The notes under the pieces: generated by a model
The model's input: the letters and a program-made list of their open reading frames with translations, nothing else
Told to the model about the DNA's origin: nothing
Databases searched by the model: none
Position numbers and translations under genes: made by a program
NCBI RefSeq assembly: GCF_000155635.1
Contig: NZ_DS990556.1
Location: 1-64,000 of the forward strand
Direction: 5' to 3'
Origin: Cyanobium sp. PCC 7001
Lineage (GTDB): Bacteria; Cyanobacteriota; Cyanobacteriia; PCC-6307; Cyanobiaceae
DNA length: 64,000 bases
In this document: in pieces, positions 8,782-53,828 of the stretch
How the letters are laid out: the number at the start of each line of letters is the position of its first letter
Numbering within the stretch: position 1 is the stretch's first letter

Positions 8782-10242
<1,461 letters not shown>

Positions 10243-10288
10243 CTGCTGAACTCCTGGAGGTCCATCGGAGAGTGGCCGATGGTGGGAA

Positions 10289-10362
10289 CGGGACTGACGG
10301 GGCTCGAACCCGCAACTTCCGCCGTGACAGGGCGGTGCTCTAACCGATTGAACTACAGTCCC
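10289..10362 (-). tRNA. trnD: tRNA-Asp (GTC anticodon)
   Basis: On the minus strand the sequence folds as a cloverleaf. The acceptor is GGGACTG / CAGTCCC with discriminator G, the D arm contains TTCAATCGGTTAGA, the anticodon loop is CTGTCAC with GTC, and the T arm has GGGTTCGAGCCCC. CCA is not encoded. It lies just upstream of gltX. Confidence 0.96.
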
Positions 10363-10566
10363 AGATTGACCTTCAGGCGCAGGGGCCCTCAGGCGAGGTC
10401 GTCAGGTGATGGCCCAGCTCAGGCACGGGTTCAGGCTTGTGAAGGCCTGGCAGGCTTGGATTCGGGCCGCTCGGGCGACCTGAAAAGTATCCGCGATCAC
10501 TGGCCCCATCGTCAACAGATTGGAATCGACCAACCCCCGACAGGGTGATGGGGCCAAAGCACTGTT

Positions 10567-10600
10567 CAGAGCCTGAATCCGGTCAGGGCCTGAATCCGGC
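10567..10600. repeat. 17-bp tandem duplication across a stop codon
   Basis: CAGAGCCTGAATCCGGT (10567-10583) is followed directly by CAGGGCCTGAATCCGGC (10584-10600), with two mismatches. The junction coincides with the stop codon of the minus-strand small gene ending at 10583, so the duplication helped set its C-terminus. Confidence 0.85.
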
Positions 10601-10771
10601 CGGTTCGATCAGCCGCACCTGGTTGCCCCGGGCCGTGAACTCACGCCCCTGGTCGCTCTGGACTACCACCCGACCACCGGATTTGACCCGGATGACCCGC
10701 GCCCGGACCCAGCCCAGGGCGGCGGATTCGAGCACCTTGACGACATCACCGGGTTGTAAATCCAACTCCAT
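10583..10771 (-). CDS. Small SH3/KOW-like conserved protein
   Basis: A 62-residue protein beginning MELDLQPGDVVKVLE and containing ARVIRVKSGGRVVVQSDQGR, a pattern of short beta strands and Gly turns like small SH3-type or KOW barrels. No catalytic residues are seen and its function is unknown. The ATG at 10771 is chosen because an upstream in-frame start would run back into the tRNA-Trp gene. It lies between tRNA-Trp and tRNA-Asp on the same strand. The C-terminal residues come from a local 17-bp duplication. Confidence 0.65.
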   Translation of the reverse strand: MELDLQPGDVVKVLESAALGWVRARVIRVKSGGRVVVQSDQGREFTARGNQVRLIEPAGFRP

Positions 10772-10807
10772 GTCCGGAACCACGAAACAGCAGATGGGGA
10801 CATCGAA

Positions 10808-10880
10808 CGCGCCGTGGAGGACTTGAACCCCCGACATCAGGTTTTGGAGACCTGCGTTCTACCAACTGAACTAACGGCGC
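10808..10880 (-). tRNA. trnW: tRNA-Trp (CCA anticodon)
   Basis: Minus-strand cloverleaf of 73 bases. The acceptor is GCGCCGT / ACGGCGC with discriminator G, the D arm contains TTCAGTTGGTAGA, the anticodon loop is TCTCCAAA with CCA, and the T arm has GGGGGTTCAAGTCCT. It is 62 bases downstream of rplS on the same strand. Confidence 0.96.
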
Positions 10881-10942
10881 AGAGCCGATGTCCCCAGGAT
10901 GAGAATGACGAGCTGGAAGGAAAACTCCTGGCGGAGTGCTCG

Positions 10943-11470
10943 TCAGCGGTCGAAGCGTTGCTTGACCCGGGTGGCTTTACCCACCCGATCGCGCAGGTAG
11001 AAAAGCTTCGCCCGGCGCACCTTACCGCGTCGCTCCACGTTCACAAAAGCCACCTGGGGGCTGTGGAGCAGGAAGATCCGTTCCACGCCCACGCCCTGGA
11101 AAATCCGACGCACCGTGATGGTGGCGTTGAGGCCGCCGTGGCGCTTGGCGATCACCACGCCCTCATACGGCTGCACGCGCTCCTTGTTGCCTTCCCGGAT
11201 GCGAACGCCCACCTTCACGGTGTCGCCCACGTAGATCTCGGGGAGTTCGTCCTTGAGCTGCTCGGCCTCGAACGCCTGGATCAGGGCCTGGGCGCTCATC
11301 CTGCCGGTTTTGGCCTGAACGACCGGTTTGGCTGCCGTGGCCACAGGGGCACTGTCCTCAGGAGCGGCCACGGCCTGGGCGCCATCGCTCAGGGCTGTCT
11401 CGCTCTGGGCGCTCTCGTCCTGGGTGATCGGGTCTTGAGCCGTCTCGTTCTGCTTGTCCTCAGCCGCCAT
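10943..11470 (-). CDS. rplS: 50S ribosomal protein L19, N-terminally extended
   Basis: L19 sits at the 30S-50S interface. The core from about residue 60 shows [48 protein letters not shown] and a basic C-terminus KATRVKQRF. The protein is 175 residues, against about 115-120 in most bacteria. The extra 55 or so N-terminal residues are Ala/Glu/Asp/Gln-rich and look disordered. The ATG at 11470 has GGAG a few bases upstream (GGAGCTGAG). An in-frame start 51 bases earlier lacks such a site. Confidence 0.94.
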
Positions 11471-11529
11471 CTCAGCTCCGCGTCGCCTGGCCAAACAGCC
11501 AGTGTACCGGCTCACCGGCACCTACCGGT

Positions 11530-11865
11530 TCACCCTTTCGCCCGGGCCAGCCCGCGGCGCAGCCGTGCCAGCGCCAGCGCCCCGCCGCTCACCAGCATCC
11601 ACGTCAGCCCCAGACCGTTGAGCAGCACGTACACGGTTTCACCGTTGGGGCCGAACCAGTGGCGCAGCCACTCCCCCTCGTGCAGCACCATCAGCACATG
11701 GGCCTGATCACGGCTCAGTCCTCCCCAGTCCCGCAGCAGCCGGTAGCCCATGCCCGTGGCCACCGTGAGGGCGAGGGGCAGCAGCACGAACGGAGCCAGG
11801 GCCGCATGCAGCTCACGCCAGCGCGGCGGTTGCCACACCGCGGGCGTCCGATCGAGAGGCTTCAC
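11530..11865 (-). CDS. PepSY-type small membrane protein
   Basis: A 111-residue protein with an N-terminal membrane helix (FVLLPLALTVATGMGYRLL) and a C-terminal one (VYVLLNGLGLTWMLVSGGAL). Between them is a short loop with VLMVLHEGEWL and FGPNGETVYV, the pattern of PepSY-associated TM proteins. Its exact role is unknown. No ATG fits; the GTG at 11865 puts GGAG about 12 bases upstream. Any longer frame would overlap map on the other strand and has no plausible composition. It is divergent from map. Confidence 0.7.
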   Translation of the reverse strand: MKPLDRTPAVWQPPRWRELHAALAPFVLLPLALTVATGMGYRLLRDWGGLSRDQAHVLMVLHEGEWLRHWFGPNGETVYVLLNGLGLTWMLVSGGALALARLRRGLARAKG

Positions 11866-11928
11866 TGCGCTGATGGTCTCCGGCGGCAGGCTGCCCCCAT
11901 GATGCGCACAGGGGCCATGGTCAGCGGC

Positions 11929-11967
11929 GATGGTGAAGGCCGATGGTGAGGGCCGATGGCGAGGGGC
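11929..11967. repeat. 13-bp tandem repeat, three copies, in map leader
   Basis: GATGGTGAAGGCC (11929-11941), GATGGTGAGGGCC (11942-11954) and GATGGCGAGGGGC (11955-11967) lie head to tail, diverging from copy to copy. They lie in the spacer between the divergent PepSY gene and map. Confidence 0.85.
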
Positions 11968-12097
11968 AGGGCCTGCCGGCCTGCACCGGGCACCGGGCTC
12001 CGCCAGAATCGGCCCAAGGCCAGAATTCGGCCCAGGGAATGACTCCCGCAGGCGTTTCCCGTGGTGGGTCGCTCCCCGTCCCGCAGCGCCCGACTCA

Positions 12098-12119
12098 CCC
12101 AACGCCAGCCCAACGCCAG
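12098..12119. repeat. 11-bp perfect tandem duplication before map
   Basis: CCCAACGCCAG occurs twice back to back (12098-12108 and 12109-12119), ending 11 bases before the map start codon. It falls where a Shine-Dalgarno sequence would be expected, and none is obvious. Confidence 0.85.
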
Positions 12120-45838: not shown

Positions 45839-47359
45839 ATGATCATCGACGACACCCTCTACGACGTGGTGGTGATCGGCAGCGGCGCGGCCGGCGGCAC
45901 GCTGGCGGCTGAACTCGCCGAGGCGGGGAGGAAGGTGCTGCTGCTGGAGCGGGGCGAGCGGCTGCCGCTGGTGGATCAGAACGTGGTGGATGTGGACCTG
46001 TTCCGCAAGCAGCGCTACCACCCCGAGCAGCCCTGGTTCGGCAGCGACGGCGATCCCTTCAATCCCCAGATGGTGTATGCGCTGGGGGGCAACACCAAGA
46101 TCTGGGCGGCGGTGCTGGAGCGGCTGCGGGAGGCGGAGTTCGAGGGGGTTGCGATGCAGGACGGCCGCTCGCCGGCCTGGGGCCTGCACTACGGCGATCT
46201 GGAGCCCTGGTATGACCGGGCCGAGGCGCTCTACCGGGTGCACGGCCAGGCCGGCGAAGACCCCACGGCGCCGCCCCGCTCAGGCGCCTATCCCTTTGAG
46301 CCGCGGCCGATGGAGCCGGTGCTGGAGCAGCTGCATGCCGACCTGGCGCGCCAGGGGCTGCGGCCGTATCACCTGCCGCTGAGCTGGAGCGAGAACGCGG
46401 CGGATCCCACCGGCGATGCGGAGCAGTTCGGCGTGGAGCGGGCCCTGGCGGCCGCCACGCCGGCGGCGGTTCGCAGCGGCGCGGAGGTGGAGGCGCTGCA
46501 TGTGGACCCCTCCGGCCGCCAGGTGAAGGGGGTGGAGGCGCGGATCGGGGAGGACCGTTGGCTGTTCCAGGGACAGCAGGTGGTGCTGGCGGCGGGGGCG
46601 GTGAACACGGCGGCGATCCTGCTGCGCTCGGCCGGGGAGCGGCATCCAAGCGGGTTGGCCAACGGCTCGGATCAGGTGGGCCGCAACCTGATGAAGCCCC
46701 AGCTCACGGCCCTGCTGCAGCGGGCCAGCAGCCCCAACTCGGGGCGCTACTCACCTGCTCTGGGTCTCACCGACTACTACTGGGGCGACAAGAACGTGAG
46801 CTACGCGCTGGGCTCGATCCGCAACGGCGGTGGCGTGCTGCAGGATCCGCTGTTCGCCGAGTCGCCGCCGCTGCTGTCGCTGGTGAGCCGGCTGCTGCCG
46901 GATCCGGCGCTGGAGTGGCTGGCCGACCGCTCGATCACCTGGTGGGCGATGACGGCGGTGCTGCCCGACCCGGAGAACCGGGTGACGGTGCGGGGCGAGC
47001 GCATCGATGTGGCCTACATCGCCAACAACCGCGAAGCCCACGACCGGCTGGTGTACCGCTGGCTGGACACGATCCAGAAAACCGAGGCCGACCCCGCCAC
47101 CACGGTGGTGCAGCGGGCCCCGATCTACCCCCGCGGCGAGGCCCCGCTGAGCGTGATGGGCCTGGCCTGCGGCACCTGCCGCATGGGCCCCGATCCGGCT
47201 ACGTCCGTGGTGAACCTGCAGGGCCGCTGCCACGAACTGGAGAACCTGTGGATCGCCGATGCCAGCGTGTTCCCCAGCTGCCCGGCGGTGGGGCCTGGGC
47301 TGACGGTGATCGCCAATGCGTTGCGGGTGGCGGAGGAAGTGCGGTGGGTGTTGGGGTGA
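45839..47359 (+). CDS. GMC-fold flavoprotein without the usual catalytic His/Asn
   Basis: A 506-residue FAD protein. The dinucleotide fold is VVVIGSGAAGGTLAAELAEA, near residue 10, followed by ALGGNTKIWAAV and a C-terminal half with GTCRMGPDPAT and ADASVFPSCPAVGPGLTV. In GMC alcohol/glucose oxidases a His lies just before GTCxM and a His/Asn in NPxLT. Here the first position is Leu (MGLACGTCRM) and the second is Gly (GPGLT), so neither pair member is present. It may be an electron-transferring or structural relative rather than an alcohol oxidase. It follows ctaE by 13 bases. Confidence 0.85.
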   Translation: MIIDDTLYDVVVIGSGAAGGTLAAELAEAGRKVLLLERGERLPLVDQNVVDVDLFRKQRYHPEQPWFGSDGDPFNPQMVYALGGNTKIWAAVLERLREAEFEGVAMQDGRSPAWGLHYGDLEPWYDRAEALYRVHGQAGEDPTAPPRSGAYPFEPRPMEPVLEQLHADLARQGLRPYHLPLSWSENAADPTGDAEQFGVERALAAATPAAVRSGAEVEALHVDPSGRQVKGVEARIGEDRWLFQGQQVVLAAGAVNTAAILLRSAGERHPSGLANGSDQVGRNLMKPQLTALLQRASSPNSGRYSPALGLTDYYWGDKNVSYALGSIRNGGGVLQDPLFAESPPLLSLVSRLLPDPALEWLADRSITWWAMTAVLPDPENRVTVRGERIDVAYIANNREAHDRLVYRWLDTIQKTEADPATTVVQRAPIYPRGEAPLSVMGLACGTCRMGPDPATSVVNLQGRCHELENLWIADASVFPSCPAVGPGLTVIANALRVAEEVRWVLG

Positions 47360-47582
47360 GGTTTGTTCCCCTTCTTGAAAGATCCTGCACAGCTGTTCTG
47401 TAGCTGGCTGAACCAGTGGTTCTTGGGTCCGATAACCACGCCTACCCTGTGGAGTGTCGAAGCTAGAAGCAATGCCGCACCTGGGTTTTGCGTCTCACCA
47501 GCTATTGCTCCAGTGTGGTTATCGGAAAGGGCGCATCGCTCTGCCTTGGTTCACGGAACCGACCAATGACTAGTTAGATTTA
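47360..47582. other. Spacer at the 5' edge of the low-GC island
   Basis: Base composition falls from strongly GC-rich to about half GC within this stretch. No tRNA, direct repeat or attachment site is recognised. It contains no supported gene. Confidence 0.5.
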
Positions 47583-48707
47583 CTACGCTGCTGGACAGTA
47601 CGACAACTCGTAGGCAAAGTCGTGTTCAACGTTAGCCCGCGAAGTCGCTGGCCGAAACGCACGAACTTCACGTGGCCTTATAGAGGAGGTCACCCCCTCG
47701 TGAACCGGCTGAACACTTCGACCGTGATCACTTTCGGCGGCATCGCGCAAGCTCTGAGTTACCCCACGAAAAAGATCATCTTTGGTAAGTTTTGCCCCTC
47801 CAATCCGAACTACGATAACAGCATGATCGCTTAGCAAAGGAATCACACCTGCCCACGCTTCACACAGGAACTGCCAGTATCGATCGATTCGGGTGTGTCT
47901 GTCATCAGGGTTCTTGCGCAGCTCAGGAAATGGTGCACCACCTAGAAACCATAATCTTAGCCATTGGTCTTCGGCATAATCGGTAGTGTCCAGGTATGGA
48001 GGTGACGTCACAACCAGGCGCACCTTCCCGCATATTTCCGGGAACGAAGCTGCTGAGTCTCTCGCATCTGCTTGGCGGACCATCCCCCTTATCTCGGCTG
48101 AGGGGGCTCTGAATCGAAACGTCGCGGTGTTACGGAGAACATCAAACACCCTCCGTCGTGGCGGTTGGAGCCCACGCTCAGCCCACCAACGTATGGAGTA
48201 ATCTGGTTTAGTGCTTATTGTGCGGGGCATGCGGTTGCTCAAGCAATAATCAGAACGGTGCGACTCTCCGTGGAGTACGCCCAAGGTTAGGGCAGCGATA
48301 AACCGATCCACTTGATCGTGACGCCACTGGAGATGTTCACGAAGAAATAGAATCTCTGCCAAAGTATTGCGTTCATAACACGCCTCAAAAAATGGACTAG
48401 GCGCTACTGATAAAATCGGGTCGCTGGTGAAGCTCTCCTCCAATTCATTTATTCTTCTGAAGATCGATTGTAGTGATGGAGCTTCCGCTTTGGCACCTGC
48501 AATGCAAGCGGCTACGGGGTTGATGTCCACCCCGTACGAAGGACGGCCATGAAGCAAACTCTCGAAGACTGTTGTCCCACGTCCACAAAAGGGATCAAAT
48601 ACAACGTCTCCCGGGGTTGTATATGTAAGAACTTGATGTTCCACAAATTCCTCTGGGAACATGGCGAAGTAGGGACAAAGCGAATGAAAAGGATGTCTAT
48701 TGCTCAT
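47583..48707 (-). CDS. DNA methyltransferase (N6-adenine or N4-cytosine type)
   Basis: A 374-residue enzyme. The SAM motif DPFCGRGT is at residues 38-45 and the catalytic TSPPYLDTTDY at about 234-244; SPPY is typical of amino-methyltransferases of adenine N6 or cytosine N4. Motif order (I early, IV late, with about 190 residues between) fits alpha/gamma-type enzymes with the target-recognition region in the middle. It is the last gene of a three-gene operon and starts with a four-base overlap with the putative nuclease. Codon use and GC are unlike the surrounding chromosome. Recognition sequence unknown. Confidence 0.85.
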   Translation of the reverse strand: MSNRHPFHSLCPYFAMFPEEFVEHQVLTYTTPGDVVFDPFCGRGTTVFESLLHGRPSYGVDINPVAACIAGAKAEAPSLQSIFRRINELEESFTSDPILSVAPSPFFEACYERNTLAEILFLREHLQWRHDQVDRFIAALTLGVLHGESHRSDYCLSNRMPRTISTKPDYSIRWWAERGLQPPRRRVFDVLRNTATFRFRAPSAEIRGMVRQADARDSAASFPEICGKVRLVVTSPPYLDTTDYAEDQWLRLWFLGGAPFPELRKNPDDRHTRIDRYWQFLCEAWAGVIPLLSDHAVIVVRIGGAKLTKDDLFRGVTQSLRDAAESDHGRSVQPVHEGVTSSIRPREVRAFRPATSRANVEHDFAYELSYCPAA

Positions 48708-49762
48708 GCGGCAGATTTTGCTTCGTTGAGTGCACTGTCAATCCACTCCCTTACAGAGGTAAGCGTATTACCACCTGATTGCGATGCCGAGCTCGTCAAG
48801 CGCCTTGCAGCTGCACCGACAATTCGCAGTCGGTCGATCACGAGACCAAACTCCTGTTCGCGGAGCCAGGCTTGGGCTGATGCGACGTCTTCGAAGGCGG
48901 CTTCACTGCTCCCAGCACATTCATGATGCTGTGGGAAAGGAATGAATATTGCTGGGATGTAGTGGTGGGTAGGCTGTTGTGAGAACCAGCTCAAGAACCT
49001 AGGTGTATCTGCTTTTACTGACTTTTTGGTCCAGTCGTTGCCAGAGGCGACTTGCCCGAATAACACCAGCTTACCCGGCCGTTTGTCGTCAAACTCACGC
49101 CAAGCCACAACATCAATTCCGGAATCCTTTTCTCTGCCATTCGACCAAATGGGAACGCTGTCGTGAACCGTACCAAGCCGAAGCTGCCGGTTCAAGTCCT
49201 GCAAAGCAGGGCGGAAAGCAGTCCCTTCCTTCCTTGGCCACCCAAAGGAAACCGAAACACCGCCAATCACATCAGCTGCAGCCTCGGAGGCAATCTCCTG
49301 AAAGTGACGAGCCATCGCACGTTCCAAATCCGGAATGCCTTGGCCCTGAATACGCCGATCACGGATGGCGCTTGTCAGAAGGCAGAAGATATAGCATTCC
49401 TGGCCCGTAGATGATTCATTGGATTGCCTGTCACGGGTCGAAACGCATCGAATGCTCCAGTTGGCGCCTCGGCTCCTGATCTGAAACGGGTAATAACTTC
49501 CGACAACAGCGCTGCGATGCTCCAGCTCGTCGAGTACAACATCTGCTGCCTCGTGCCGGTCGTCCTCCAATATTTCACTTTCTAAACTGTCCCCGTTCGA
49601 TGGGTCATATCGGACATCATGTCCGTCGTCGGCCAAACGATCATACAGACGAACAACATCCGCTCGCGTTGCTACTCCACGACTTGCTGTAAGAGCCATA
49701 ACCTCGAGCCAATCTGCCAGCCGGCTTCGCGTGTCCTGTGGCAGAGGACCTCTAATTGGCAT
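48704..49762 (-). CDS. Putative endonuclease (PD-(D/E)XK-like) of an R-M-type cassette
   Basis: A 352-residue protein of unknown family. Its C-terminal part has GIDVVAWREF (about 215-224) followed by LVLFGQVASGNDWTKK (about 232-247). An Asp after a Gly-Ile turn and a Gln/Glu strand about 20 residues later is the layout of PD-(D/E)XK nucleases, although the canonical Lys is not in place. The N-terminal 100 residues may bind DNA (LADWLEVMALTASRG). ATG at 49762 is chosen because GGGAGAGG sits six bases upstream; the longer TTG frame (49783) would lack a ribosome site. It overlaps the ParB-like gene by 11 bases and the methyltransferase by four. Confidence 0.6.
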   Translation of the reverse strand: MPIRGPLPQDTRSRLADWLEVMALTASRGVATRADVVRLYDRLADDGHDVRYDPSNGDSLESEILEDDRHEAADVVLDELEHRSAVVGSYYPFQIRSRGANWSIRCVSTRDRQSNESSTGQECYIFCLLTSAIRDRRIQGQGIPDLERAMARHFQEIASEAAADVIGGVSVSFGWPRKEGTAFRPALQDLNRQLRLGTVHDSVPIWSNGREKDSGIDVVAWREFDDKRPGKLVLFGQVASGNDWTKKSVKADTPRFLSWFSQQPTHHYIPAIFIPFPQHHECAGSSEAAFEDVASAQAWLREQEFGLVIDRLRIVGAAARRLTSSASQSGGNTLTSVREWIDSALNEAKSAA

Positions 49763-50894
49763 TGTCATCCTCTCCCTGTTCAAGTCGCTCCGTGGTGGTT
49801 TTCATAGCCCCATGCAGGGATTGCACAGTCCTCCTAAGGTTGTCACCCGCCGTCATCAAGTCAGGGCGTCCATCGAAATTGCCAACCAATCGCAGAGTAT
49901 CCTCCGCCTGCTTGATAGTCAGCATTAGAGAGCGGCTGAATTGCAAGCTCTTGTCCTCTACTTGATCGTACGCGATATGCAGGTCACGAGTCGCCTCCAG
50001 CATTGTTGTCGCATTGTCGTTACCAAGCACCTCCACCAAACGGTTCAGATCCGGATTCTGACTCGCTACAACTGCGGGCTCGTTCCTCTGCCCATATAAC
50101 CAAGACATTAGCTGACGAAGCTCATCGCTTCGCTCTGTTGGTACTGGCTGCACTGGCAACACCTCAGACAAATTGTCATCTGACAAGCCAAGGTATGACC
50201 TTACATTTGGCCTTGCGACAGCTGTATAAAGGTGCGAAAAGGGGAACGACTTTTTAGTGGTATCCTCACGGTTGAAGCCCTCTGCAAGTGCCTGTTGAAG
50301 GACATTCCATCCGTTTACAAGTCGCCGGATTGTGTTATGATTGTCTCCTAGGCGCCGGCTAACGTGATCGATAGTTGCACCGTCACTTAGCCACTCCGCA
50401 GCATACTTTGCTTTGGCCAACGCATCCCACTTAAATGGGCCATTGATGTGCTTGAATCCAATGAAGTCACGAGCGTCGCTTCGCGAATTCACGCGGCGCA
50501 CGCGCACCATCTGAGGCTGTGACTTAGGCCCAGGTTCTTCTGGAAGCTCAATGCCAAAGCGCTCACGAGTTGCCTCGTCCGCCAAGATTCGAAGTGCGGC
50601 GAGACGACGATTGCCCTCAAGAACGACGTTGTCTTGCTCAAGGACAATCAGTGGTTCGTAATCCAGCCAGCCAGAGGTCAAAATCGATTGAATAAGCTCC
50701 TGAATATCCGCGTGGTCGAGCAGATACTCTAGAACCTCTTCTTCGGATTCGAATGACTCGTCAGGAATCCGCGGATTCTGGAGATCAAGGCGCAGATTAT
50801 CGGGCGCCTCGAATTCGTCACTGATGATTGGATTGCTTTGGGACACGTTGGTTACGCCTCGTGAAATCGAGTTTTCAGTCAAAGCTCTGTTCAT
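49752..50894 (-). CDS. ParB/sulfiredoxin-fold domain protein with HTH
   Basis: A 380-residue protein and the first gene of the cassette. Residues about 35-105 carry a ParB-type N-domain: LRLDLQNPRI, IQELIQSILTSGW and VVLEGNRRLAALRIL, where GNRR (94-97) corresponds to the GERR/GNHR nucleotide-binding box. Residues about 172-195 (ATIDHVSRRLGDNHNTIRRL) form a helix-turn-helix. A C-terminal helical region (about 300-370) is coiled-coil-like. Chromosome-partition ParB genes are next to parA, which is absent here, so a role in the defence/modification cassette is likelier. Low GC. ATG at 50894. Confidence 0.82.
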   Translation of the reverse strand: MNRALTENSISRGVTNVSQSNPIISDEFEAPDNLRLDLQNPRIPDESFESEEEVLEYLLDHADIQELIQSILTSGWLDYEPLIVLEQDNVVLEGNRRLAALRILADEATRERFGIELPEEPGPKSQPQMVRVRRVNSRSDARDFIGFKHINGPFKWDALAKAKYAAEWLSDGATIDHVSRRLGDNHNTIRRLVNGWNVLQQALAEGFNREDTTKKSFPFSHLYTAVARPNVRSYLGLSDDNLSEVLPVQPVPTERSDELRQLMSWLYGQRNEPAVVASQNPDLNRLVEVLGNDNATTMLEATRDLHIAYDQVEDKSLQFSRSLMLTIKQAEDTLRLVGNFDGRPDLMTAGDNLRRTVQSLHGAMKTTTERLEQGEDDNAN

Positions 50895-52084
50895 TCTACT
50901 AGAAGAGTGCCGTTTACTGCTCGGAGTTGTTTTTCGCCATAGACAATAGAGTTACTTAACGCGTATCGAACGGCTCGGCTGTTGACTAGTGCGTCGATAA
51001 GCCGGACCACACAGCCGGCTGGATCTTATCTTCGTTCCATACGGTGATGGTGCTGCGGCTGCAGCTGCAGCAATGGCATAGAGAGTTGGAAAACTGGCCA
51101 TCTCCATCGCTTACGTGCGAGTAGCCCGTAGGTTTGTTCTAGCCACTCTAAGGCCTTGAGCGTGCGGGTTTGCACCTAAAGCTCGACGTCAGAACCAGCC
51201 CAAAGAGCGGCCCACGAGATTGACGGCCTGGATTGTCGTCGCTAAGTACAATCGTGCGTCGACTCAGCCCCAGAAATGGACGCGATCAATCTCAGCATAT
51301 ATGGAGCTTCCTTGGCTGTAGGTGCTCAGCTGGATTGAGGTGCTCCACCGGCATGAAATGATGATCGGGCTGTTCACGGAGAGCTGAGCATTATAGCGTT
51401 GGTTCGGATTTGGCCTAAGCTTTTCTTTGTTGTATTCGTTGATCGAAATGTAGCTAGGTGAATCGAAAGTCTGCGGAGAGCTAGGCGCCGTCAGGTCAGG
51501 CAATAGGCTAGAGCGAGCCAAATACGCCTCCATTTCCTGACCGACAGTTGAGGAGCATTAGGAGATAGCGTATCCGGCCAATGGTGATCCCGATGCGATC
51601 CTACTTGTAAATGAGCTGATAGATCACATAGTTCCTTTACTGACTTTTCGAGGACATCCAGACTCGCCAAGAAGAAGCATTTTGATTCGATCCGATACGC
51701 TCCTGATTTGCTCGAGTGCGTCAGACCATTCGGAGCTGCCTGGCATTTACGGATGCATGCTGTCTTGCTCGAACATGAGGAATCACACTCTATCTCGGAT
51801 GTATACGGGGCCTAACACGGCCATGCACCTGAGCCGCCACCTGAGAGTTATTCAACAGATTTGCCTCTCTCTGCGGCCAGGTGATGGCAAGCGTTAGATA
51901 AACAGTGACTACTTTCTGAATTGCCTGCCTAAGTGGTTGCCGGCTTATCCCGATCAGCCTGTCAAGGATCACCATGCCCTGCTGGAAGCGGCCGAGCCAG
52001 GACGCTTCGAGGCCCTGGTGGAGGCGGATCTACAGGGCCTAGCCCAGCAACGAGCGCTGCTCCACCCATCGAACCCACCCTCCC
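50895..52084. other. Decayed, gene-poor region upstream of the ParB-like gene
   Basis: About 1.2 kb of mixed composition with no supported intact gene. A minus-strand frame of about 50 codons near 51040-51185 (with LKALEWLEQTYGLLARKRW) and another of 89 codons at 51264-51533 have no recognised match. The last 150 bases return to high GC and encode, on the plus strand, a short fragment with PDQPVKDHHALLEAAEPGRF that has no start and looks like the cut-off end of a former gene. No transposase or integrase is evident. Confidence 0.6.
51898..52078 (+). pseudogene. Possible C-terminal remnant of a host gene
   Basis: After an in-frame stop, the plus strand reads open through YFLNCLPKWLPAYPDQPVKD, then HHALLEAAEPGRFEALVEAD and LQGLAQQRALLHPSNP. 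GC content matches the host chromosome, unlike the sequence just upstream. There is no ribosome site or natural start, and the end abuts the OYE gene. It may be what is left of a gene cut by insertion of the low-GC island. Low confidence. Confidence 0.35.
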
Positions 52085-53262: not shown

Positions 53263-53487
53263 ATGGTGATCGGCGTGCGCGTGGAACCGGAGTTGGAGCG
53301 GCAGCTCGATCAGCTGGCGCGGCAGCTCGGCAAGAGCCGCAGTGCCTGCATCCGCGAGGCCATTCGTCAGTACCTCCTCCGTCACGGCGATGCCGAGGAG
53401 GCACGCCGGCAGTCCGAACACCTGGCCCGGTTGGAGCAGCCCCACTGGACAGAACAGGTGCCCGACTGGAGCGACTGGACGGCATGA
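53263..53487 (+). CDS. CopG-type ribbon-helix-helix antitoxin
   Basis: A 74-residue protein. The beta strand VIGVRVEPELERQLDQLARQ followed by GKSRSACIREAIRQYLLRHG is a classic ribbon-helix-helix DNA-binding fold at residues 1-46; the remainder (RQSEHLARLEQPHW) should wrap the toxin. It overlaps the toxin start by four bases (ATGA). It probably autoregulates through the nearby palindrome. Confidence 0.88.
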   Translation: MVIGVRVEPELERQLDQLARQLGKSRSACIREAIRQYLLRHGDAEEARRQSEHLARLEQPHWTEQVPDWSDWTA

Positions 53488-53828
53488 CGCCGGCCGCTCT
53501 ACGCCGCGGCACGTTGGTGACCGTGGCCAGCCCCGGTGCCTATTCCGGCAAACCACGGCCGGCAGTGGTGGTTCAGGCGGACCGCTGGCTCCAGGCCCAT
53601 CCCAGCGTCACCCTCTGTCCTCTCACCAGCACCCTGGTGCAGGCTCCCCTGGTGCGGCTTGCCGTGGAGCCCTCGCCGCGCAATGGCCTGCGCAAACCGT
53701 CCCAGCTGATGGTGGACAAGCTGTTCACCGTTCCGATCCAGGCGGTGGGTGAGGTGGTAGGGCAGCTGGAGCCCCAGGTGCTGGTGGACCTGGATCTGGC
53801 CCTGCGGGGCTGGCTGGAGCTGCCCTGA
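53484..53828 (+). CDS. PemK/MazF-type mRNA interferase toxin
   Basis: A 114-residue toxin of the PemK/MazF fold. The start RRGTLVTVASPGAYSGKPRP contains the conserved Arg of the catalytic cleft, followed by AVVVQADRW, CPLTSTL (catalytic Thr/Ser) and QLMVDKLFTVP. It would cleave mRNA when free of the antitoxin. It is translationally coupled to the CopG-type antitoxin gene. Confidence 0.85.
   Translation: MTPAALRRGTLVTVASPGAYSGKPRPAVVVQADRWLQAHPSVTLCPLTSTLVQAPLVRLAVEPSPRNGLRKPSQLMVDKLFTVPIQAVGEVVGQLEPQVLVDLDLALRGWLELP

Follow-up and report, generated by a model that had tools for sequence, protein, structure and literature searches.

What does a ParB-like protein do when it is encoded in a tight cassette with a predicted nuclease and a DNA methyltransferase? 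The question is raised by three minus-strand genes, here called A, B and C (Table 1), in a 64,000-nucleotide stretch of Cyanobium sp. PCC 7001 (contig NZ_DS990556.1, positions 1 to 64,000), which as a whole is referred to as the window. An original prediction, made from the sequence alone, had described the three genes as overlapping, and the coordinates of the open reading frames (ORFs) bear this out: A and B overlap by 11 bases when B is read from its ATG at 49762 (an alternative, longer TTG start is available), and B and C overlap by 4 bases. The motifs quoted in that prediction are present as well: B contains GIDVVAW and LVLFGQVASG, and C contains DPFCGRGT and TSPPY. It had not recognised the trio as a named system, and we found no name for an A-B-methyltransferase trio in the library of open-access papers that was searched.

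We conclude that the cassette probably represents a type of restriction-modification system that has so far gone unrecognised. More specifically, we give a probability of about three in four to a horizontally acquired, modification-guarded restriction system with an anti-phage role, in which A and B form the restriction arm and the methyltransferase is an exchangeable guard. The interpretation of the original prediction as a whole, a transferred restriction-modification or phage-defence system, is supported.

Recurrence of the A-B pair

Homologous loci were collected with an alignment of three A proteins, searched against genome contigs and viral contigs. Of 139 loci confirmed on genome contigs, the best 80 were taken; viral contigs contributed another 19, and the total is 98 once a duplicate (L017) had been removed. 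B is found directly downstream of A in 94 of these 98 A-seeded loci. Two of the exceptions stop inside A at a contig end (L035, L107); in the other two, A is interrupted (L045) or B is a remnant (L082). Overall, B adjoins A for 106 of 110 A genes. Twelve of the 106 pairs were found via B or DNA queries, and three such queries held a methyltransferase gene. Some loci are near-identical, there being 106 distinct A sequences in 111 rows. The distances within A and within B are correlated (Mantel r = 0.87 for 87 non-redundant pairs, with 0 of 999 permutations as high). Because B is directly downstream of A in nearly all A-seeded loci, and because the distances correlate, the trio cannot be regarded as a chance arrangement.

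A survey of homologues for co-occurrence had been named as a check on the original prediction. It was run here, and the trio recurs in records of many phyla. Judged by record titles, the genome contigs with A come from Cyanobacteria, Actinobacteria, alpha-, beta-, gamma- and delta-proteobacteria, Chloroflexi, Gemmatimonadetes, Acidobacteria, Entotheonella, Rhodothermaceae and Chthoniobacterales. Three other cyanobacterial records carry A-B (L052, L072, L083). Four phage and plasmid searches with B returned 6, 6, 0 and 3 records.

Exchange of the methyltransferase partner

By its family matches, C is an amino-methyltransferase. It matches Pfam family PF01555 (1.2e-18) and the PADLOC profile MTase_II (3.3e-26), and its solved relatives include 2zie (4.6e-11) and the N4-cytosine methyltransferase 8s9m (6.9e-5). 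Clustering of neighbouring genes revealed methyltransferases of the D12 family (PF02086) in loci without C, and of the C5 family (PF00145) in loci reached via B. A methyltransferase lies within 3 kb in 88 of the 94 A-seeded pairs (C in 36, D12 in 52); four of the six pairs with neither C nor D12 in the distance used are at contig ends. Taking all pairs together, 97 of 106 have a methyltransferase partner (37 C, 56 D12, 4 C5). C, where present, is always on the same strand and immediately after B, while D12 genes are convergent in 34 cases, downstream on the same strand in 12 and upstream in 10. The rest consists of eight pairs without a methyltransferase and one minus-strand pair that has none by an earlier label, with its orientation unassessed. 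These pairs are at contig ends in L022, L029, L048 and L062, and elsewhere in L003, L007, L051, L086 and the second pair of L006.

When the C/D12 label is mapped on a tree of A, 8 changes are counted with L011 and L054 left out, and branches supported at 95 or more require 5 of them; with both loci kept and C5 treated as a separate, third label, the count is 11. This maximum-likelihood tree is a quick one from a short search, with long branches that meet, and the exact number of changes is unsafe. The reverse exchange is also seen: two E. coli prophages share a C5 methyltransferase at 97.8% identity, with A only 32% and B only 25% identical. The methyltransferase class is exchanged while A-B stays, and the A-B lineage is also exchanged around one methyltransferase. 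Exchange of the methyltransferase is the observation least expected under textbook restriction-modification.

One candidate for a clean swap of the methyltransferase, L010 (C) against L011 (D12), was dropped because the D12 gene of L011 overlaps a NotI-family endonuclease gene (PF12183, 3.2e-40) and scores low (254 bits). In this Entotheonella record, the two overlapping genes follow A-B (9904-11621). L054 (256 bits) was dropped alongside L011 before the 8 changes were counted; both are still D12 in the pair tallies and in the comparison of HTH residues between C-type and D12-type rows.

Several loci have further peculiarities. In the cyanobacterial records L072 (5156-8008) and L083 (5254-8016), a large ORF upstream of A-B-C runs up to the start of A or overlaps it; that of L072 (950 residues) has an N6_N4_Mtase match. 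L083 is a contig from a metagenome-assembled genome on which C is spread over several frames with A and B apparently intact (10159-12107), possibly as an assembly error. On a Neorhizobium plasmid (L007, 1-8789), A-B is preceded by genes for a cytosine methyltransferase, DUF262, Z1 and DUF4420 PD-(D/E)XK proteins. On the phage-like contig L006 (6737-11576), two differing A-B pairs lie face to face, with a C5 methyltransferase upstream of one of them.

Predicted structures of A and B

A models as a ParB/KorB/Noc fold with a helix-turn-helix (HTH), in line with the ParB N-domain and HTH of the original prediction. With the model (predicted local distance difference test, pLDDT, 91.5), Foldseek matched KorB (8qa9, 4.1e-5), Noc (7nfu, 2.3e-4) and ParB-CDP (6sdk, 3.7e-4), and VIA-align matched KorB (Z 10.2, 198 residues), pNOB8 ParB (9.5) and Caulobacter ParB (9.0). 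The Pfam family ParB_N is matched by only 17 of the 69 members of the A alignment; in PHROGs, A matches phrog_3694 (3.6e-63), a family of unknown function.

We assign the EGNRR motif of A (Table 1) to Box II (GxxR), which binds phosphate in the ParB fold; its presence in all 69 rows is compatible with a possible cytidine triphosphate (CTP) switch, in which CTP would be bound and hydrolysed and the clamp would close. A FKHxNG motif is found at the presumed Box III, with F147, K148, H149, N151 and G152 each conserved in 69 of 69 rows. G183, D184 and T188 of the putative HTH are invariant in the 29 C-type and the 34 D12-type rows, while R191 is found in 29 of 29 C-type versus 22 of 34 D12-type rows. 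According to PMC12704722, neither sequence nor AlphaFold3 reliably predicts the nucleotide. A could take the place of a specificity subunit, as originally proposed; it could equally be a clamp dependent on nucleoside triphosphates (NTP), a loader, a nicking enzyme or a regulator.

B models (pLDDT 93.0, predicted template modelling score 0.92) with a winged helix and a PD-(D/E)XK-like domain, the closest match being MspJI (Foldseek 1.2e-3, probability 0.99; VIA-align Z 6.5, root-mean-square deviation 4.3, 150 residues). MspJI is followed by N.BspD6I, FokI, AspBHI, HindIII, BsaWI, the Shedu protein SduA and EcoT38I. The ten top VIA-align rows are restriction enzymes, a nickase and SduA (Z 4.7-6.5), all of which we take to share the PD-(D/E)XK fold. 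Weak matches of the N-terminal part are to FOXN1, HlyU, ILF1, RexT, CtsR and AntR (Z as in Table 1), presumably all winged helices. B matches phrog_14650 (3.6e-35), again a family of unknown function.

D213, D217, Q237, K247, R177 and R311 of B are invariant in 77 of 77 rows, and Q155 is found in 73. The divergent B alignment (A1, 8 rows) is without conserved stretches; D217, Q237 and K247 are retained in all 8 rows and D213 in 7. Close three-member alignments (A4, A5) were used for the scans. B is assigned as nuclease-like because ten nuclease rows top the fold comparison and because of the invariant residues. The fold of the middle protein was the other check named for the original prediction, and the model agrees with the PD-(D/E)XK layout suggested there, with modest Z-scores and the canonical lysine absent; neither check refuted the prediction.

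Relationship to known systems

PD-lambda-5 (Vassallo et al. 2022; PD-Lambda-5_A and PD-Lambda-5_B in PADLOC), described in PMC9519451 as the prophage version of an 'RM+Abi' system (restriction-modification plus abortive infection), has its ParB part in common with A. The best match of PD-Lambda-5_A (4.7e-17) covers residues 29-149 of A and positions 7-132 of 454 of the profile, and among the matches listed none reaches beyond residue 192. The PD-Lambda-5_A profiles are longer (428-613 positions, with one of 169), and A does not correspond to the full-length protein. A PD-lambda-5-like protein of sister loci, here called A-prime, matches PD-Lambda-5_A over a much greater length (4-437 of 438 for the protein in L075, for instance). 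Aligned by hhalign, A and A-prime share 201 columns (residues 25-241 of A, probability 99.6). One sister locus encodes a D12 enzyme that matches PD-Lambda-5_B (1.7e-94). The window differs from PD-lambda-5 in having C (PF01555) and not D12, which is found in sister loci only, and in having gene B in addition.

We also considered B as a homologue of A-prime and rejected this: hhalign finds no relation between the two, including between B and the C-terminal part of A-prime. Since A and A-prime align N-terminally, B and A-prime do not, and the sister D12 enzyme is PD-Lambda-5_B, PD-lambda-5 and the A-B-methyltransferase cassettes look like two uses of one ParB module with differing effector parts; in D12-type loci the methylase family also appears to be common to both. 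The cassette is a relative of PD-lambda-5, not PD-lambda-5 itself.

A further, weaker ParB-like match occurs in 16 A-B loci, 15 of which are of the D12 type; the three that were tested with PADLOC match PD-Lambda-5_A. The loci with A-prime, D12 and A are L015, L016, L018-L020, L023-L027, L035, L042, L052, L055, L074 and L075, and B is present in all but L035, which breaks off. A-prime has a conserved C-terminal part of its own.

As in Type II restriction-modification, a methyltransferase gene lies beside, and here overlaps by four bases, the gene of a predicted PD-(D/E)XK-like nuclease; a restriction-endonuclease fold is predicted by the ten top VIA-align rows; and the system spreads horizontally. 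Unlike Type II systems, it has a near-constant ParB-like A with a nucleotide motif, and the methyltransferase class swaps round A-B. The near-constant A speaks against a plain Type II enzyme. With the CTP switches ParB, Noc and KorB, A has in common a predicted ParB fold with HTH (residues 25-295 model on these proteins) and the GxRR of Box II. It differs from them in the FKHxNG at the presumed Box III and in having a predicted nuclease as partner, with no parA seen in the tested window ORFs or in the annotated neighbourhoods inspected.

ParB/Srx-fold domains are reported in DNA restriction, modification or modification sensing (PMC12373910, PMC12839542, PMC5512222), and A has such a domain in common with GmrSD, SspE, DndB and ParB-methylase. 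As described in PMC12373910, GmrSD combines DUF262, carrying DGQQR, with HNH/DUF1524, whereas here EGNRR is found, together with a separate PD-(D/E)XK-like protein; DUF262, HNH and DUF1524 are absent from the Pfam matches of A, B and their alignment members. ParB-methylase is one fused protein in the account of PMC5512222, while the cassette has separate genes. MspJI-type nucleases include the nearest solved fold to the predicted catalytic domain of B, which differs from them in its winged-helix-like part and in lacking the usual lysine position. MspJI is not known to act with a ParB-like partner.

Horizontal acquisition and defence context

The low content of guanine plus cytosine (GC) reported in the original prediction is evident: all 500-base windows in 47500-51999 have 0.504-0.544, while those in the 4-kb flanks on both sides have 0.646-0.732. 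Homology to the flanks in a sister genome (G005, contig L155) ends at 47575 and restarts at 51890, and because of these breaks the island is larger than first described, about 4.3 kb. In the same slot, between flanks that are 93-94% identical, G005 has a different low-GC cassette (L155, 1986-4933), which codes for an Eco57I-type methyltransferase (PF07669, 1.9e-23), a 261-residue protein that matches no Pfam family, and an HNH protein. Among 60 genomes of relatives, and likewise among 386 of the phylum (host counted in both), B is present only in the host. The GC content, the host-only presence among relatives and the differing cargo at the sister-genome slot support horizontal acquisition of the cassette, as had been predicted. 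As a separate observation, the 261-residue protein of G005 may be a candidate for an unrecognised restriction enzyme.

Of 5426 E. coli genomes, 20 carry A-B-D12. For A-B-C5 of the L004 type, query coverage is at least 80% in 36 genomes; a further 103 genomes match at 90-95%, of which the 15 listed ones match over the C5 gene only. In one inspected match of the latter group, a diverged A-B pair adjoins the C5 gene in a defective P2-like prophage. Three E. coli copies that were inspected are situated in P2-like prophages, between the genes for the replication endonuclease and the portal protein, a position (tin/old) that PMC9519451 describes as a defence hotspot. This placement, together with the methyltransferase-HNH cassette at the G005 slot, agrees with a defence role. 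RefSeq labels the E. coli cassette genes as ParB-type protein, hypothetical protein and DNA methylase. One E. coli copy of A-B-C5 (NZ_CP172159.1, 3223-7069) has an IS1-type element inside the cassette.

Interpretation and alternative explanations

In a modification-guarded restriction system, C (D12 or C5 in sister loci) would methylate host DNA and thereby provide the self mark. A and B would form the restriction arm: A, as a ParB-type NTP-binding DNA protein with an HTH, would load on unmethylated invading DNA, and B, as a winged-helix PD-(D/E)XK-like nuclease, would cut this DNA. Gene order, A-B pairing and co-divergence, methyltransferase exchange, conserved motifs and placement at a defence hotspot are the observations behind this proposal, together with the predicted folds. 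From them we infer cleavage by B, its inhibition by methylation and the recruitment of B by A; clamp loading gated by CTP or adenosine triphosphate would be a speculative addition.

Several points weigh against the proposal. The canonical lysine position of B, two residues past Q237, is A239 in 77 of 77 rows, and only K247, ten residues past Q237, could stand in for it; either K247 replaces the lysine or B is non-catalytic. The best Z-score of B is 6.5, and the tool cautions that values below 8 can mean a common arrangement. A search of B against all PDB sequences gave no nuclease, and Pfam yields nothing credible for any of the 77 proteins aligned with it (best 0.03); the comparison of folds alone was informative. 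A occurs without an intact B in L045, where A itself is interrupted, and in L082, where a 34-bit remnant of B lies next to it. Conversely, searches with B led to two plasmid loci in which A could not be detected: L008, where B is in two frames and adjoined by D12, and L009, where B is a fragment. The 9 of 106 pairs without a methyltransferase in the distance used belong here too. An exchange of methyltransferase class is odd if cutter and marker must share one site. Finally, we know of no member of this cassette family with a known activity.

In a bolder version of the proposal, restriction would be gated by a ParB-type nucleotide switch. A would then load at unmethylated sites as an NTP-bound (probably CTP-bound) sliding clamp, spread, and recruit or license B along the invading DNA, and any methyltransferase that blocks loading could act as guard. 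We regard this version as tentative and, on balance, rather doubtful.

The alternatives overlap in part with the modification-guarded restriction system and with each other, and the probabilities assigned therefore need not add up to one. A-B might act by abortive infection or as an addiction module, killing the cell once methylation is lost or blocked instead of policing sites; this is in our view unlikely, yet it deserves attention. Such an action is suggested for PD-lambda-5 ('RM+Abi', PMC9519451), whose ParB part is common to A, and an A-prime gene accompanies A-B in the 15 D12-type loci; moreover, the swapping of methylases is easier to grasp if A-B senses a state and not a site. However, B has no detectable relation to A-prime, and it resembles a DNA nuclease, not a general toxin.

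A conventional Type II system would have B as the complete restriction enzyme, C as its methylase and A as a KorB-like regulator, a large equivalent of a C protein. KorB, the top fold match of A, is a repressor, and the winged-helix-like part of B might find DNA alone. It is nevertheless improbable, given that A, unlike the exchangeable methylase, is almost as constant a component as B and diverges in step with it, and that the NTP-motif residues of A are invariant (69 of 69). In addition, 34 of the 56 D12 genes are convergent with A-B, which is ill suited to shared control by A.

We think it somewhat less probable still that A-B is a modification-dependent, Type IV-like pair, which attacks modified foreign DNA and has the methyltransferase merely adjoining. 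The nearest solved folds of B do include MspJI and AspBHI, the former presumably modification-dependent and the latter so by its title, and five A-B pairs away from contig ends have no nearby methyltransferase. ParB-fold GmrS proteins are reported to work in Type IV systems (PMC12373910). A Type IV enzyme needs no DNA methyltransferase, though, and one is found within 3 kb of nearly all A-seeded pairs (88 of 94).

It is quite improbable that A is a sequence-nonspecific nicking enzyme of the ParB type with B as its non-catalytic DNA-binding partner. PMC5512222 reports nonspecific nicking by ParB-domain proteins, including a Bacillus cereus ParB-methylase fusion, and the usual lysine is missing from B; but the conservation of D213, D217, Q237 and K247 throughout suits a catalytic role of B, and A retains the ParB nucleotide motif and the HTH. 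The idea that the cassette is left over from a partition or plasmid-stability system, and that its methylase has no connection with the rest, can practically be dismissed: A is ParB-like, and RefSeq labels some E. coli A genes as 'ParB/RepB/Spo0J family', but no ParA was found in the annotated neighbourhoods inspected or the tested window ORFs, and the locations are chromosomal and in prophages.

Many ParB-fold proteins of mobile elements have no ParA partner and an unknown role, according to PMC12704722. The present results tie a widespread ParB branch (phrog_3694) to a predicted nuclease (phrog_14650/3984; phrog_3984 is also of unknown function in PHROGs) and to self-marking methyltransferases. 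If the modification-guarded restriction system is real, it would be an unnamed restriction-modification architecture that extends across many phyla and into E. coli P2-like prophages, and it would offer a route to asking whether ParB-type nucleotide switches control DNA cutting. The two-way swapping of methyltransferase classes and A-B lineages makes the reading of a self mark by the restriction arm testable. Should the clamp version hold, the ParB clamp cycle would be used for DNA restriction, a use which we have not seen reported, and the restriction arm would be independent of any one methylase class.

Coordinates and neighbouring features

Table 1. Features of the A-B-C cassette and its island in the Cyanobium window. 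Residue numbers refer to the respective protein.
Feature	Position	Strand	Details
Gene A	49752..50894	-	ParB/KorB/Noc-like, 380 aa; predicted NTPase-type N domain, HTH, helical C terminus
Gene B	48704..49762	-	winged helix and PD-(D/E)XK-like predicted nuclease, 352 aa from ATG
Gene C	47583..48707	-	N6-adenine/N4-cytosine DNA methyltransferase, 374 aa; DPFCGRGT 48573-48596, TSPPY 47994-48008
EGNRR motif of A	50604..50618	-	residues 93-97; all five identical in 69/69 rows
Putative HTH of A	50283..50372	-	residues 175-204, GDxHxTxxR; model helices 175-182, 186-204
Winged-helix-like N-terminal part of B	49346..49744	-	residues 7-139; VIA-align Z 3.1-3.9
PD-(D/E)XK-like domain of B	48803..49336	-	residues 143-320; D213, D217, Q237, K247
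Inserted low-GC island	47576..51889	.	about 4.3 kb; from GC and comparison with G005 flanks
Island stretch upstream of A	50895..51889	.	about 1 kb, low GC; longest ORF at most 89 aa

The island lies between genes for a GMC oxidoreductase and an FMN oxidoreductase. Other genomes differ at this slot: G003 has other genes there, and G002, G004 and G011 have different low-GC DNA after the GMC gene, with the contigs of G004 and G011 ending nearby. Homology is already lost at 47373 in G002 and at 47325 in G007, where the DNA past that point does not have a low GC content. No convincing attachment sites emerged among the direct and inverted repeats that surround the island. As stated in the original prediction, ParA and integrase genes are missing: neither was found among 13 window ORFs searched with Pfam, which code for oxidoreductases, COX3 and a toxin-antitoxin pair or are without match. 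Four tested ORFs wholly inside the island stretch upstream of A have no Pfam match, and this stretch is perhaps decayed cargo. The toxin-antitoxin pair, a ribbon-helix-helix antitoxin (PF01402) followed by a PemK/MazF toxin (PF02452), is encoded at 53263-53828 on the plus strand, outside the island and past the FMN oxidoreductase gene.

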